64,000 nucleotides of DNA from Bacteroidales bacterium (GTDB taxonomy: Bacteria; Bacteroidota; Bacteroidia; Bacteroidales; VadinHA17), in assembly GCA_003142255.1 (NCBI GenBank), contig PLLO01000007.1, forward strand, positions 1 to 64,000, given 5' to 3'. The notes beneath the pieces were generated by a model, which saw only the letters and a program-made list of their open reading frames with translations, was not told where the DNA came from and searched no databases. This document shows positions 1 through 7,293 of this stretch, one piece after another; the first letter of the stretch is position 1; every line of letters starts with the position of its first letter. The position numbers and the translations under genes are program-made.

Positions 1-203
1 AAATCGAAATCACTTTTCCCAATTATATCAGCCTCTTTAGCACCAAAATACCTTTCATATTTTGGATTACATAAAAGATATTTACCATCAGTATCTTTAA
101 GGCATACCAAATCAGGAATAGTTTCGATCAATATTCTGAGTCTTTTCCGTTCATCTTCAAGCAATTTCTTTTCTTTGGTATTCTCTGTTGAGTCCTGTAC
201 CAT
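1..203 (-). CDS. PAS-domain sensor protein (probably histidine kinase), partial, runs off window
   Basis: Own translation of the minus strand: MVQDSTENTKEKKLLEDERKRLRILIETIPDLVCLKDTDGKYLLCNPKYERYFGAKEADIIGKSDFD; typical PAS core 'ETIPDLVCLKDTDGKYLLCNPKYERYFG'. Open to window edge. Confidence 0.7.
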   Translation of the reverse strand, partial: MVQDSTENTKEKKLLEDERKRLRILIETIPDLVCLKDTDGKYLLCNPKYERYFGAKEADIIGKSDFD

Positions 204-464
204 CTGGTAAATTATTTTGTAATCGAAATTTTATTTTCAAAGGTACTAAAACCATGGCTATCAATCATTAGTATTCAGGGAATCGTTTTATAGATCACTT
301 AAAGGTGCAAAAGTGCAACGAGTGGAGGCAAAACTGCATTTTCGGAATGTCAGGCAGGAAAAACTTTTAAAAGTGGATCAATATTATCCTGTTAGGCAAT
401 CTGGAAAGTCTTTAATTAGAAATTTTTAAGTTACATAGTCAAAATTAGAGTTATTTCACGGGTC

Positions 465-570
465 AGAAAAAGCATGTGTTTGGCAGCGTCAGGTTGACTT
501 TGTGTGAGGGTAGCCAAACTTTTGCTTGCGCGCTGGCAATCAAGTCATTACGGAAGGCCCTTACAGCTAA
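465..570. repeat. Degenerate repeat copy upstream of the LRR locus (related to 5047-5229)
   Basis: 'AAAAAGCATGTGTTTGGCAGCG' and 'AAACTTTTGCTTGCGCGCTGGCAATCAAGTCA...CCTTACAGCTAAC' resemble 'AAAAAAGCATGTGTTTTGCAGCG' and 'AAAACTCTTGCTTGCGAGTTGGAAGTCA...CCTTACAGCTAAC' at 5047-5229. Confidence 0.65.
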
Positions 571-1002
571 CGGCCCGGCAATAAAGGTTGTAAGCGTTGT
601 TGAGCGATTTAAGGTCGAAAAGTAGTGTCCCAGTAGAAAATACAATGCTGTGAGGCCGGAAGGAGCGAAGTATGGCGCGGTTTTTGCCAGTCCCGGCGAA
701 AGATATAATTGTCTCGGTTGCAGGATTTGTCCAGAGCCGGAGTCACGGATTTGGTAGATGAGTGATAAGTTTTGTGTCACGATAAAACTGTCAAGGTGGC
801 GAGCAAAAATTGTGACAAGTTTATTACCCCAACCGTCCGTGTTAGCGGATAAGGCGTGTTTGGAGTCAAGTTACAAATCTACATATCTAGAGTTTACCAG
901 AACACCTTTATTAAATTCTAAAAACAAGTCTTTTTCAAAGATTCGCATATACTAGCATAAAAAACATTTTTTTATACAATGTTTTCATAGATTATATCTT
1001 CA

Positions 1003-1548
1003 TTATTTTCGTATTACTAACTTATTAATGTATTGCTTGTTTTTAATAACAACTTTTAGTATGTATATTCCGCTTACCTGATTTGTCAAATCAATTTGGT
1101 AATTGTCTACATAAGTCAATTCCTTTCGAAATACTTCAGCACCAATCAAGTTTGAAACCGAAACCTCACTATTTTTTCCTGAATTCTGAGTGAATTCAAG
1201 AGTTATCATACCGGTAGTTGGATTTGGATGAACCTTTAAACCATCAGAAATAGAGATATTTTCATTAGCCCTGGTTAGTATTGACAGGTCAGTAAAATAG
1301 ATTAATCCAACTGAAGTAAAATTCATGTCCTGCTTCAAACCATTTTGCCAACAAGAGAACGAACCATTGTTGTCGAATGTTAATTTTAATCCTTCTATAG
1401 GAACTTGTTGATATCTTCCATTCGTTAGTTGAATCGTAAATTTTTGCTGCGCAGATATCTTCTGGTTAGCATATATAAGGACAATTACCATTGCTAACTT
1501 GAATCCTAAAGTGATGGTCAGGCGCATATTATTTATTTTGGTTTTCAT
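1003..1548 (-). CDS. T9SS type A sorting domain-containing protein
   Basis: ORF with signal-peptide-like N-terminus and C-terminal 'VHPNPTTGMITLEF...GIYILKVVIKNKQYINKLVIRK', a typical Por secretion-system CTD. Confidence 0.8.
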   Translation of the reverse strand: MKTKINNMRLTITLGFKLAMVIVLIYANQKISAQQKFTIQLTNGRYQQVPIEGLKLTFDNNGSFSCWQNGLKQDMNFTSVGLIYFTDLSILTRANENISISDGLKVHPNPTTGMITLEFTQNSGKNSEVSVSNLIGAEVFRKELTYVDNYQIDLTNQVSGIYILKVVIKNKQYINKLVIRK

Positions 1549-1607
1549 TGGTTTTTATCTTTTTTTTGAATTAGACTTCTAATAAAATGAGAATATCTAA
1601 ACATCTA

Positions 1608-4517
1608 TCATTCAAATATTTTCTTATTCATTATGACAGGTGGAGAAAGTAATTCTGTTTCTTGTTCACGTTTTGCATTGATGATTGTGGCAGATTTTAA
1701 AACTGGCTCGTATTTATCCTTTGCAACGAAATCGTCCCACACATAGGCAACTCCTGCGGCCTGAAGTATGTGCTTAACAATCTGTTCACGGCTTGGACCA
1801 TTGAAATAATGCAGCTTACTGTCAAGCATAGAGCTGGTTTCCTCCGGACGCCAAACACCCTTCCAATAATAAAAACCACCTTCGTAAGTTCCCACCATGG
1901 TGTAGTTGGAATTACCGATAAAGTGAGCCCAGGGAGGATTAGTATTCGTTAGCGATATATTCTGAAACCATCCTTTAGATTGTGCTTCAATTAAAGCGTC
2001 ACGATCGGCTTGTTTAATTGTTTCATAGTAATCGATATATTCATCGCCGAGTTTCCCTAATCCATGGCCTATTGCTTCATGTTGAAGGACTCCGGCAAAG
2101 TTTTCTGCATCTGAAGGTATTGAAATAAACGAAACTGAACCATCATCATACATATAAGAAGTTCCTGCCCTTCCTGTCGAATTTAGAATTGTAATTATGT
2201 GGGTTTCACCAGAAATGATTTCTTCCACTTTCTGTGCATACTCCTTAATTTTAGTAATATCACCACTTATCCCTCGATTTTCACCAAATTTTGAACTGAA
2301 TATCGTTTCTGAGGAATCCATAAAAACACCGTTCTTTGACACAGCATTCACCGCATACACATTGAAGTATTCGCGATAGCTTCTGGTTGGTTCAACAGAG
2401 AAGAAATGCTCCATTGCTTCATGCATCTTTTGCTCGTACAATCCACCGGCGACCATAGTTGTATCAACAAATCCATCACCCATTAACACGATATTCACCC
2501 CTGTTCCAATTGTCGCACTCTGCAACTTTGTTACTTTGCCATCCTGGCTGAAATCCTTCGATTGATATAATTCTAATGGTCCAAGTTCAGATGTAATGAA
2601 TTTCTCAAAATCCTCCCTTTTGTCCCATAATTGATCAGAAAAAACAATTTCTCCATTTTGGTTGACAATATGAACGTTAGGGACAGTCCTATTTGGGAAG
2701 TTCGCAAATTCTGCACCATAATCAATAATTAGATTTGTCCATGATATTTGGTTGTCTTGGATATAATTTTCTATGGAGTTGACTTCAACCTTACTTGCTC
2801 TGATATACGATATAATACCCAACCCCTTGTTGTTAAAATTCTCATTTACAGTTTTAAGAATGGGAAGAAATTTTCCTGAGAACGGATCCGAGAGAGACCA
2901 TGTAAAAACCACAGTAAGTTTATTCGATGCAAAAACAGAATCTAAGTCGAAAGTTTTATTATCAATATCTGTTACAATAGTATCAACTGTCTTTACGATT
3001 TCACGCTCCAATTCGAAACCAGGCTGTTGTTCGACAATGCCCCACACGAGTTCATTCCATTTGGGATGGTTTATGAGTGAGGTGGGAATAACCCCTGAAA
3101 AACGGTTATTGGTAATGTCCAAAACAGACAATTTGGGTAATGAATATAAGATCGCAATCTCTCTTGGGATTTCACCTATATAATAATTAAAACTTAAATC
3201 CATAAGATTCAAATTCTGGAGTTGTCCCAATTCAACAGGAATCGCACCATCAAGGTGATTACAACTCAAATTTAAATATTCAAGGTTAGACAATTGCCCT
3301 AATTCAGATGGTATAGCACCTGTTAGAAAATTTGAATTTATACTCAAATATTGAAGTTTCGACAACTTTCCTAATTCAGGAGGTATGGATCCGGTTAATT
3401 CGTTAAGCATCAGACTCAAAGTTTTCAAATTGGACAAATTCCCTAATTCAGGAGGTATGGAACCTGAAAATGAATTATCATACAGATATAAGTATTCTAA
3501 GTTTGATAATCTCCCAAGTTCGGATGGAATAGTCCCGGAAAATTTGATACCTGATAAGTCCAGACGGGTAAGGTTCGACATTTGGAATAATTCCGAAGGG
3601 ATAGTCCCGGAAAATGGATTGCGGGCTAAGCACAAGCTTTGAAGTTTCGATAATTGAGCCAATTCACCAGGAATGATTCCGTTAAGTTTATTATCATTTA
3701 GCCATAACTCATTCAAATCAGAAAGTTCAAATAATGCTAATGGGATAGTACCTGTAAGTTGATTATATGATAACAATAATCCTTTCAGTTTTAAAAGTGT
3801 ACCTAATTCTGCTGGAATAGGACCAGTAAGTTGGTTACCAGAAAGACACAGGTTAATTAATTTATTTAACCTCCTTATTTCAGTGGGGATAGTCCCGGTA
3901 ATTTGATTGTTAGGTAAATACAGATTATTTAAATTAACCAACTTCCCAAGTTCTGCAGGAATTGAACCTGTTAACTTATTGCTCGTTAAATTTAGCCATT
4001 CCAAACACGTTAAATTTCCGAATTCAGTCGGAATAGACCCAGAAAGCTGATTGACTTGTAAGTTTAGAGACTTTAAATTTGTTAATGTAGCGAACTCACG
4101 TGGCATATCACCTTGAAGATTATTAAAATCTAGATTAAGTTCTGACAACCTCCCATTTGAGTTTGTAATTACACCATACCATTCATTAAGTGGTTTGTCG
4201 CTGCACCAATTAGTTTTGTTTATCCAGTTTGGTCCACCTGTGGCATTATAAAATGCAATTAATGCATCACGGTCTGTTTCTGCAGTTCCCAAATCAGGAA
4301 TCGTTTTAATACTATCAATTTCAGCAATTGGGATGTCTGTAGTCGATGCGTTCCAATTATGGATTCGCATTGTAGCTTCATTAGGGAAAGTAACGCTGTC
4401 AATTGAGGATGTTAGTGTTTCTATATTAATTCCATTTTTCTTAAACACAACCAATTTATCCTGAGCAATGCCGGAAATAGGAATTAATAACAACAGGATT
4501 GTGTAGTATTTTTTCAT
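1608..4517 (-). CDS. Leucine-rich-repeat protein with thioredoxin-like segment and M64 (IgA-peptidase-like) metallopeptidase domain
   Basis: Start adjusted to MKKYYTILLLLIPISGIAQ (signal peptide). About 15 LRRs of 24 aa (LxxLxLxxNxLTGxIPxELGxL); 'VNIVLMGDGF...' and zinc motif 'LQHEAIGHGLGKLGDEY' as in Peptidase_M64. Confidence 0.85.
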   Translation of the reverse strand: MKKYYTILLLLIPISGIAQDKLVVFKKNGINIETLTSSIDSVTFPNEATMRIHNWNASTTDIPIAEIDSIKTIPDLGTAETDRDALIAFYNATGGPNWINKTNWCSDKPLNEWYGVITNSNGRLSELNLDFNNLQGDMPREFATLTNLKSLNLQVNQLSGSIPTEFGNLTCLEWLNLTSNKLTGSIPAELGKLVNLNNLYLPNNQITGTIPTEIRRLNKLINLCLSGNQLTGPIPAELGTLLKLKGLLLSYNQLTGTIPLALFELSDLNELWLNDNKLNGIIPGELAQLSKLQSLCLARNPFSGTIPSELFQMSNLTRLDLSGIKFSGTIPSELGRLSNLEYLYLYDNSFSGSIPPELGNLSNLKTLSLMLNELTGSIPPELGKLSKLQYLSINSNFLTGAIPSELGQLSNLEYLNLSCNHLDGAIPVELGQLQNLNLMDLSFNYYIGEIPREIAILYSLPKLSVLDITNNRFSGVIPTSLINHPKWNELVWGIVEQQPGFELEREIVKTVDTIVTDIDNKTFDLDSVFASNKLTVVFTWSLSDPFSGKFLPILKTVNENFNNKGLGIISYIRASKVEVNSIENYIQDNQISWTNLIIDYGAEFANFPNRTVPNVHIVNQNGEIVFSDQLWDKREDFEKFITSELGPLELYQSKDFSQDGKVTKLQSATIGTGVNIVLMGDGFVDTTMVAGGLYEQKMHEAMEHFFSVEPTRSYREYFNVYAVNAVSKNGVFMDSSETIFSSKFGENRGISGDITKIKEYAQKVEEIISGETHIITILNSTGRAGTSYMYDDGSVSFISIPSDAENFAGVLQHEAIGHGLGKLGDEYIDYYETIKQADRDALIEAQSKGWFQNISLTNTNPPWAHFIGNSNYTMVGTYEGGFYYWKGVWRPEETSSMLDSKLHYFNGPSREQIVKHILQAAGVAYVWDDFVAKDKYEPVLKSATIINAKREQETELLSPPVIMNKKIFE

Positions 4518-4887
4518 GGATTTATAAATTAACATTGAGTTCTAAAAATAATTCATAACCGTTTCTTTTAAGCTTGACTAAAACGATTGCGTAAACGCCA
4601 ACGTGGTGTTTATTTCTGACTTGTGTGTGGAATCATTTTCGTTAATGTAGTAAATATAAGAAAATTCCAATACTTAAATACTATTGTCAAAGGTCTAATG
4701 TGTTAAGAGGACTTTTTATCTGATCGAGACCCTTGGTGCTTTAGTGGGTATTGATCTAAGTGGTTTAACTGCTTTCGAGCCGCAATTAGGTGTTTAGAAG
4801 GCAAAGTCAGGGTTGGCAAAAAGCATATGTTTTGCAGCGGTAGCTGCCAAAAATTTAGTTTTTAATAATCTAAATTGATGGATAGAA

Positions 4888-5040
4888 GTTGTTGTGTCAT
4901 GATTAAGTTAACTAGGCGGCAAAATCCAAGTGTACTGGCAGGAGTTGTCACGTTATGATATAGTTGTCAAGAGGGCAAAGTCCCGGTAAACTTGCAGAGG
5001 TCGTCGTGTCATGATGAAGTTGTCTAAGTGGCGAAGTTCA
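4888..5040. repeat. Degenerate tandem repeat, 56-bp period (3 clear units plus a partial at about 4790)
   Basis: Unit starts at 4888 (GTTGTTGTGTCATGAT), 4944 (GTTGTCACGTTATGAT) and 5000 (GTCGTCGTGTCATGAT), each followed by AAGTT/TAGTTGTC...GGCRAAG; a single related copy lies at about 769-803. Confidence 0.75.
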
Positions 5041-5082
5041 GGTAGGCAAAAAAGCATGTGTTTTGCAGCGCAGGGACGGTTA

Positions 5083-5145
5083 ACCCTGTGAAATATCGCA
5101 TAACTACAAATGTCGTCTTTTATATTAAACATTATTTCACAGGGT
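5083..5145. repeat. 13-bp perfect inverted repeat (ACCCTGTGAAATA ... TATTTCACAGGGT), 37-bp spacer
   Basis: Read directly: 5083-5095 and 5133-5145. Confidence 0.8.
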
Positions 5146-6102
5146 GAAGGGAAGGGCAGAAAAACTCTTGCTTGCGAGTTGGAAGTCATGGTACAGTGAG
5201 GATATGCGGTAATTTGCCTTACAGCTAACTTATCTGTATGATCAGCGAAGTTGAAATTTATACTTTAAAAAGGTTGGATATGTGTATGTTTATTTATTAA
5301 TAGTCACAAAACGACCCAAATTGATTAATCCGGACCAAACAGATGTTATCTTCCTCTGAAAAATTCAAATTTCCGCTATCAAAAACTGGAATAATCTATG
5401 ATTATGGAACAATTATTCAATGCTTTCGCCCCGTCAGTCACATATTGTAAATGTCCCGACAAGGTAAATGAGCTCCATGAACCCCAAATCCTTTAATAAT
5501 CTCTCGCGCTTGTAGTATTGCATACCAAATTTACACAACTGTTTAAATAAAAGGAAGGATTTAATAATAAAATATAATGCTACTCATATAAAGTCAATCG
5601 TAATATTTGATTGTATTAGAGAAATAACTATGTTTTCGATATGTATTACAAAAGCCGGACAATCTCAGGACATGTATTGCAAATTTTGACTTTCACATAA
5701 TCGTGCCGCTTTTATTCCATAACGGTCAGATGACCATCACGTGGTGGTACTCACTTATTGCTTGAGGTATGTAGCAAGACAATTCAATTAGTAATGTCTC
5801 TTTTATTTAATAAATGTCCGTTTATTTATCCCATGTAATTTGAGAAAGTTATTCATTGTGCCTAAACGTCTTAGGATCTTTTTTGAATGATTTATTTTGG
5901 GGAGTATTATTCAAGGGTTGAACTATTACCTTGCGCTTAATGCTTTAAGGCAATAATAAATTTCAAAATCCGTATGACAACCCGTAAGTGGTCTTTTTAG
6001 CTGAGAAGCTAGCTTAAATAAAAAAGTGTACAGTTTGTTTTTTTGTCTTTCGACTGTATACAAAACTGTACACCTGACTTTTTTTGATCTTCGCAAACCC
6101 TG

Positions 6103-6176
6103 TCGGGGTGATCCGACTTGAACGGACGACCCCTTGCACCCCATGCAAGTGCGCTAGCCAACTGCGCCACACCCCG
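6103..6176 (-). tRNA. tRNA-Pro (anticodon GGG)
   Basis: Minus strand CGGGGTG TG GCGCAGTTGGCTAGCGC A CTTGC ATGGGGT GCAAG GGGTC GTCCG TTCAAGT CGGAT CACCCCG A; full cloverleaf, U33, GGG at 34-36, C1:G72 and A73 typical of tRNA-Pro. Confidence 0.92.
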
Positions 6177-6297
6177 AAAAATTCCTACGCAAAAATAATC
6201 AACAATTCTGATTATCCAAATAGCAACAAAATCACCCAGCCCTGAAACTTAGTCATGGATTTTTATAATTTTACCTTTAATTAAACTGAAAACAGAT

Positions 6298-7293
6298 ATG
6301 GAATTATTTAAGCCTGTGGATATCCAATCGCAGCCTGCAAAAGCTGAAGAAGGGCATGCAGAGAAGGTAAAATGCCTCATAATAGGCTCAGGACCTGCCG
6401 GATATACTGCAGCAATCTACGCCTCGAGAGCAAATCTAAAGCCTGTGCTCTATACCGGTTTGCAAATGGGAGGCCAGCTTACCCTTACTACAGAAGTTGA
6501 TAACTTCCCCGGTTATCCGGAAGGTATTCCAGGTCCCGAAATGATGGAAGACCTCAAGAAGCAGGCTGAAAGATTCGGTACTGATATCCGTTTTGGCATT
6601 GCAACTGATGCGGATTTCTCAGGCCGGACACACAAAGTGGTGATCGACGAAAACAAAGTTATTGAAGCCGATGTGGTTATCATTGCCACAGGGGCGACTG
6701 CAAAATACCTTGGCATTGAGGCTGAAAAGAAATATGCGGGACAGGGAGTATCTGCCTGCGCTACATGCGATGGATTCTTTTACAGGAAGAAGGATGTTGC
6801 AGTTGTCGGAGGTGGTGATACTGCAGCTGAAGAAGCAACTTATCTTTCAGGATTATGCAATAAAGTATATCTTATTGTAAGAAGGAATGTTCTGAGAGCA
6901 TCAAAAACCATGCAGGATAAAGTGACGAGAACTTCGAACATAGAAATCCTATGGGAACATCAGCCGGTTGACCTTTTCGGTGAGAATGGAGTTGAAGGAG
7001 CCCTGCTGGTAAAGAAAAAGGGAACCCCGCAGGAAGAGATGGTAAAAATAAAAATTGACGGATTCTTCCTGGCAATTGGGCATACACCGAATTCAGCTGT
7101 CTTTAAAAAGTTCATCGAAACAGATGAAACCGGATATATTAAAACAGTTCCCGGAACCACTAAAACAAATGTCCCGGGTATATTTGCCGCCGGCGATGTT
7201 CAGGACTCCCGATACAGGCAGGCTATCACGGCTGCCGCATCAGGATGTATGGCAGCTGTCGACGCTGAATGTTATTTGTCAGAGATAAAATGA
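6298..7293 (+). CDS. trxB: Thioredoxin-disulfide reductase
   Basis: GSGPAGYTAAIYASRA FAD motif, CATCDG redox motif, GGGDTAAEEA NADPH motif. Confidence 0.95.
   Translation: MELFKPVDIQSQPAKAEEGHAEKVKCLIIGSGPAGYTAAIYASRANLKPVLYTGLQMGGQLTLTTEVDNFPGYPEGIPGPEMMEDLKKQAERFGTDIRFGIATDADFSGRTHKVVIDENKVIEADVVIIATGATAKYLGIEAEKKYAGQGVSACATCDGFFYRKKDVAVVGGGDTAAEEATYLSGLCNKVYLIVRRNVLRASKTMQDKVTRTSNIEILWEHQPVDLFGENGVEGALLVKKKGTPQEEMVKIKIDGFFLAIGHTPNSAVFKKFIETDETGYIKTVPGTTKTNVPGIFAAGDVQDSRYRQAITAAASGCMAAVDAECYLSEIK

Follow-up and report, generated by a model that had tools for sequence, protein, structure and literature searches.

A diverged branch of M64-like peptidases from Bacteroidales that has a stretched HExxxH zinc motif, lacks the structural zinc site and varies in its N-terminal modules

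Zinc peptidases have HExxH as their textbook motif, and it serves both to find such enzymes and to filter them. In the M64 (igalysin) family, which corresponds to Pfam PF09471 and includes BF3526 (4df9, 9qdi), BACOVA_00663 (3p1v) and the T. ramosa IgA protease, the canonical motif reads HEFGHxFxGLxDEY. In its main text, a 2025 network survey of the family gives HEXXHXXXGXXD for all clusters, apart from Glu in place of Asp in two of them and from a trypanosomatid cluster that lacks the catalytic residues, and it counts 379 Bacteroidia proteins in a cluster named CL-IV (PMC12402451). The same text reports that BF3526 does not cleave intact IgA (PMC12402451), and the cysteines of the structural zinc site of the T. 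ramosa enzyme are given there as C606, C616 and C619 (PMC12237041, PMC12402451). A zinc motif longer by one residue is known from the M49 family, where the HEXXGH helix of dipeptidyl peptidase III has about five residues per turn; natural HEXXH relatives bind zinc alike, copper coordination by the five- and six-residue motifs is very similar, and both forms are active within the one family (PMC5805324, PMC3268031). An extra residue in the zinc helix, explained by a helix bend, is also described for the HEXXXH peptidases found in polyvalent proteins, which belong to phages, plasmids and conjugative elements, in a study that does not mention M64 (PMC5512222).

The window, which is the whole 64,000-nucleotide stretch of a Bacteroidales contig (PLLO01000007.1) that we analysed, contains a minus-strand open frame at 4517..1608 that encodes a protein of 969 aa plus stop, 4517 being the most likely start and the stop ending at 1608. 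An earlier note on this DNA, made from the letters alone, had located and described the gene at 1608-4517 correctly, as judged by the open-frame translation and Pfam. The protein starts with a putative signal peptide (residues 1-19, MKKYYTILLLLIPISGIAQ, 4461..4517, minus strand as for all features below) without the lipobox Cys that is present in many relatives, followed by an N-terminal segment beginning KLVVFKKNGINIETLTSSIDSVTF, to which the Pfam scan assigned no family (residues 20-75, 4293..4460), and by an LRR N-cap region that includes NWCSDKPLNEWYGV and recurs ahead of the LRRs of relatives (residues 78-123, 4149..4286). The Pfam matches on the 969-aa protein are LRR_1 (5.8e-42), Peptidase_M64 (1.2e-15) and Thioredoxin_8 (6.8e-4, under its curated cut-off). 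The C-terminal tail (residues 955-969, 1611..1655) contains LSPPVIM, and 50 of 112 branch proteins (a set that includes the best 80 of 437 relatives from a genome scan, see below) carry such a PPV-like tail; the last two ten-residue blocks of the structure model have pLDDT values of 94 and 93. From the signal peptide, a surface or secreted location may be supposed. The Pfam scan found no T9SS Por_Secre_tail domain in the M64 protein and located one in the adjacent downstream gene (1003..1548), whose 181-aa product has a T9SS type A sorting domain by both Pfam and NCBIfam. This gene lies 59 bases past the M64 gene, the N-terminal half of its product resembles the N-terminal segment of the M64 protein by eye, and about 20 T9SS sorting domains occur in the genome. 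The 181-aa protein is a possible partner of the M64 protein.

The LRRs (residues 124-486, 3060..4148), identified with Pfam and a repeat profile, are of the plant type, with the consensus LxxLxLxxNxLxGxIP (n=15). Some 15 repeats of 24 residues had been noted before, and this proved right: the first 14 start at residues 124, 148 and so on to 436 with a spacing of exactly 24, and the 15th starts at 463 after a step of 27 residues. Repeat length is regular, yet the sequences are not nearly identical. Their DNA copies are 62-72% alike and Tandem Repeats Finder detected no array in the LRR DNA, which rules out a recent tandem duplication. NCBIfam matches to the Xanthomonas effectors XopAE, XopAC and XopL, and to LIC_11051, fall far below the curated cut-offs and were rejected as LRR look-alikes.

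The segment that follows (residues 514-646, 2580..2978) had been proposed to be thioredoxin-like and to lack CxxC, with structure prediction of the region set beforehand as a possible refutation. A single-sequence Pfam search was too weak for a thioredoxin call, and the identity was settled by a 19-row profile of middle domains, which among solved structures matched ResA (4nmu, E=1.6e-15) and many further TlpA/ResA-type proteins. AlphaFold returned a thioredoxin-like order of strands and helices for residues 496-652 (pLDDT 84.5), and the best solved match in Foldseek was likewise ResA (E=4.9e-8, TM 0.70/0.78), so that profile, model and fold search, together with the relatives, bear the proposal out. 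The fold and the order of secondary structures are those of TlpA/ResA (4nmu, 1st9, 2lrn), and relatives display the W-x-x-W-C region. Unlike in TlpA/ResA-type thioredoxins, CxxC is found at the active site in none of the 21 thioredoxin-like modules of the branch, and six keep a single CxxS-type first cysteine, among the matches listed. The window protein has neither: its former CxxC site reads WSLSDPFS (Asp544-Pro-Phe-Ser547, 2877..2888), both cysteines are gone, and the domain contains no cysteine at all. In relatives the site reads WATWCPFS, ASWCNYS or ATWCGYS, with the second cysteine of CxxC changed to serine, and others have lost both. Because CxxC is absent from the site in all 21, the middle domain is, as its residues predict, a TlpA-like fold incapable of dithiol chemistry, and a non-catalytic role in docking or as a spacer seems fairly probable. 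Modules with WxxWCxxS are encoded in L146:1-2691, L080, L084:3258-5960 and L100, and their lone cysteine could still make mixed disulfides.

The peptidase domain (residues 652-935, 1713..2564) scores 58.0 bits for Peptidase_M64 (PF09471) against a curated cut-off of 26, and its profile matches BF3526 (4df9) at 1.3e-31 and the structures of the T. ramosa IgA protease at E values of ~1e-13 to 1e-15. The AlphaFold model of the thioredoxin-like and M64 domains has a mean pLDDT of 89.4, and Foldseek retrieved with it BF3526 (9qdi, 4df9) and BACOVA_00663, then the T. ramosa IgA protease, and then ResA, at low whole-query TM values that are expected from a two-domain model. The M64 domain as modelled has a metzincin-like fold, and shares with the characterised M64 proteins the order His/Glu/His, the Asp, the DEY sequence and the Met-turn. 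However, its zinc motif (HEAIGHGLGKLGDEY, residues 813-827, 2037..2081) starts with HEAIGH, that is HExxxH, and so exceeds the M64 HExxH by one residue; when aligned to 4df9 and 3p1v it shows a one-residue gap between Glu and Gly, and in the model the motif (model residues 318-323) lies inside a single helix, 309-325. The protein does not match HEXXHXXXGXXD, given the extra residue and a Lys at the Gly position. The third ligand is by homology Asp825, which is followed by Glu (DEY), and the Met-turn methionine, Met897 (1827..1829), is also present. The assignment to the M64 family made in the earlier note is therefore upheld by score and fold matches, but that of a plain M64 site is not, since the motif is HExxxH, a stretching that the note had overlooked.

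Dipeptidyl peptidase III of M49 has the same six-residue motif, with Gly ahead of the second His, and its family likewise mixes six- and five-residue forms (PMC5805324, PMC3268031). In contrast, M49 has an unrelated fold and a gluzincin-type third ligand, a Glu about 50 residues further on, so that only the motif spacing converges; the window protein agrees in the HEXXGH spacing and not in the EECRAE-type motif or the M49 fold, its fold matches being to M64.

In order to place this motif, relatives were taken from two sources, a two-row profile search of 393 genomes of the order and a scan of 84,980 species genomes, from which the best 80 of 437 relatives were retained. The scan pattern begins at the second His and is thus neutral to the spacing, while the choice of the best 80 of 437 against this query biases the set towards close relatives. 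With these 80 included, 108 of the 111 relatives with a recognisable motif read HExx-GH and three read HExxH, which rules out a sequencing or frame error as the origin of HExxxH. In the aligned set of 108 HExxxH rows (again with the best 80 of 437; the window protein is counted and one short fragment left out), every row has the Gly ahead of the second His as well as the Met-turn Met, and 107 rows have Asp as the third ligand while one has Glu. Among the matches listed, the catalytic Glu is invariant across 76 aligned branch members, and all 76 members scanned match Peptidase_M64 at E<=0.001. The Gly of HEXXHXXXGXXD is mostly replaced in the branch, often by Lys. The cysteines of the structural zinc site are all missing from 99 of the 108 HExxxH members, whereas 28 of 28 canonical M64s have all three; branch proteins (in this set with the best 80 of 437) hold at most two, usually none and never all three, so the M64 structural zinc site of one Glu and three Cys is not found in the branch, which further differs from M64/igalysin in its multi-domain N-termini.

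In a tree computed without the motif columns, the branch separates from canonical M64 with an SH-aLRT of 100 and a branch length of 1.64, and from the alignments it is almost certain that the stretched motif is fixed in it. The HExxH members are L139 (HEFGH), L073 and L078. The first, which has a near relative L139b with HEAVGH, is nested within a supported group of HExxxH proteins, and for this reason has probably lost the extra residue secondarily; the placement of L073 and L078 is less sure. Since these three have reverted to or kept HExxH, the branch can do without the extra residue. Several genomes have two branch members within a few kb, and G650 and G729 have four each, a local expansion (loci L084, L095, L129, L130, L137, L144, L145, L146 and L150). 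Relatives among the best 80 of 437 include gut and rumen Bacteroidales, such as B. fragilis and P. goldsteinii, and others are from records (HGW-Bacteroidetes, GWF2) that bear the names of non-host sampling series.

The domains found in front of the peptidase are not constant. An iterated search of 112 branch proteins (window protein plus 111 relatives, including the best 80 of 437) with the thioredoxin-like domain of the window protein detected the module in 21, its own included, and in 20 of these it directly precedes M64, ending 175-221 residues ahead of the zinc motif, with L143 as the exception. At least three plant-type LRRs are found in 12 of the 21 with a profile built from the window's repeats, an undercount, as Pfam detects LRRs in further thioredoxin-like proteins. 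Other branch members have BACON, BspA-type LRR_5, Ig-like (Big_2), fn3 or fimbrillin-like modules ahead of the same M64 domain. A fusion unique to this genome is ruled out by the 21 occurrences of the module, and the fusion that was called unusual earlier is no one-off; the combined architecture of LRR, thioredoxin-like domain and M64 turned up nowhere in the open-licence literature searched, in which we likewise found no report of HExxxH in M64. The protein is one build within a modular family. The thioredoxin-like module, missing from 91 of the 112 branch proteins (best 80 of 437 included), is dispensable for the catalytic unit, and since relatives swap the LRR array for other modules, it is the presumed targeting part that varies, in front of a catalytic unit that stays as it is.

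The branch is already in databases within Pfam PF09471, and the profile matches to solved structures include no branch member. Set against the main text of the 2025 survey, and against CL-IV by name only, the stretched-motif M64 branch is provisionally undescribed (PMC12402451). The window protein, with its LRRs and dead thioredoxin domain, is not categorically new; well supported is the diverged M64 branch to which it belongs, in which the zinc motif is stretched, the structural zinc site missing and the front exchangeable.

The gene lies at the end of its contig, in a stretch of low GC (0.36 at 1-6297, against 0.425 in the rest of the window, where the lowest 2.9-kb stretch has 0.383). Its position in this contig-end stretch, next to a tRNA-Pro gene (6102-6176, minus strand), suggests that positions 1-6300 may be acquired DNA and the M64 gene a horizontal gain. 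About 1.5 kb without a convincing gene separate the M64 gene from tRNA-Pro, just upstream of a thioredoxin reductase-like gene. The repeat AAAAAGCATNTGTTTNGCAGCG occurs in three copies (467-488, 4818-4839 and 5049-5070) that flank the gene pair on both sides, with none expected by chance, and a slightly shorter form has one further copy in the genome, on contig C3; the repeat may have been left by a mobile element or mark the border of an island. In a search with the window protein, no branch member was found among viral contigs, and plasmid matches have less than 31% identity, the annotated ones being M64 peptidases; a phage or plasmid origin is rejected on these two counts. The only other M64 of this genome is a canonical 435-aa protein on a separate contig. 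No branch-level match was found in the other genomes of the genus (61 searched) or of the family (116 searched), where no match exceeds 132 bits, while the window protein scores 374; matches above ~90 bits come from frames of 349-530 aa. A further M64-like type is present in the family (G023:C278, G014:C8, G017:C299, G002:C1, G009:C75 and G874:C330), with frames of 496-559 aa that score 60-73 bits against the branch profile.

In our view, the protein probably works as a secreted zinc peptidase, to which a swappable binding array and a thioredoxin module without redox function are joined. The catalytic zinc would be held by the two His of HEAIGH and by Asp825, with Glu814 as the general base, and the extra residue between Glu and Gly would be absorbed by a bulge of the active-site helix, as in the HEXXGH of M49, so that both His could still face the metal in an enzyme that has lost the classical structural zinc site. 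The redox-dead TlpA/ResA-like domain ahead of the protease would probably act as a rigid docking or spacer module, or offer a peptide-binding face, and the LRR array in front would decide the binding partner. In relatives, the array is exchanged for BACON, BspA-type LRR, Ig-like/fn3 or fimbrillin-like modules on a constant catalytic unit. A targeting function of the array is fairly probable. The targeted surface or secreted protease suggested earlier fits the variable N-terminal modules ahead of a constant M64, its location being read from the signal peptide.

The nearest characterised fold, BF3526, trims peptides near their N-termini, which raises the question of whether the window protein is a nutrient-scavenging exopeptidase of this kind that cuts predigested peptides, with the LRRs and the thioredoxin-like domain as surface anchors. 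BF3526 is, however, a stand-alone enzyme with an N-terminal beta-sandwich, whereas the N-termini of the branch are large, variable domains of binding type, which suggest substrate targeting, and we find this explanation unlikely. It is likewise improbable that the branch is a catalytically dead scaffold, a binding pseudo-peptidase in which the extra residue turns the second His off the zinc. The insertion falls inside the zinc motif, the structural zinc site is lost and the adjoining thioredoxin-like domain is ruled out as a CxxC redox enzyme, all of which would suit such a scaffold, but His, Glu, His, Asp/Glu and the Met-turn Met are kept in more than 100 diverged members, and M49 is active with the same spacing. 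As this full catalytic set persists across diverged proteins, activity of the HExxxH branch is, by residue conservation and by analogy, likely. It is very improbable that the protein is an ordinary M64 peptidase of the IgA type, directed by its LRR array to host immunoglobulin or a mucosal protein, in spite of the Pfam family shared with the T. ramosa IgA protease and of the several gut and rumen Bacteroidales among the sources of its relatives (B. fragilis and P. goldsteinii being two of them), because the kinship to the IgA protease is distant (profile E ~1e-13 to 1e-15), the closer BF3526 leaves intact IgA uncut according to the survey text cited above, some relatives come from records with the names of non-host sampling series, and the genome has its canonical M64 in another gene.

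The preferred reading, that of a secreted and targeted zinc peptidase, has consequences beyond this locus. A branch of at least 108 members with all other catalytic residues would escape, or be misfiled by, searches for the HExxH motif. The probable return to HExxH in L139 means that deletion and insertion mutants could show how far metzincins tolerate a longer zinc helix. Whether Bacteroidales hold an undescribed set of modular targeted peptidases, an M64-like branch with a working HExxxH helix, no structural zinc and a constant catalytic unit behind swappable arrays, is in our estimate evenly poised, and the swappable front modules suggest that this may be a general targeted-protease system in Bacteroidales of the gut, the rumen and other habitats.
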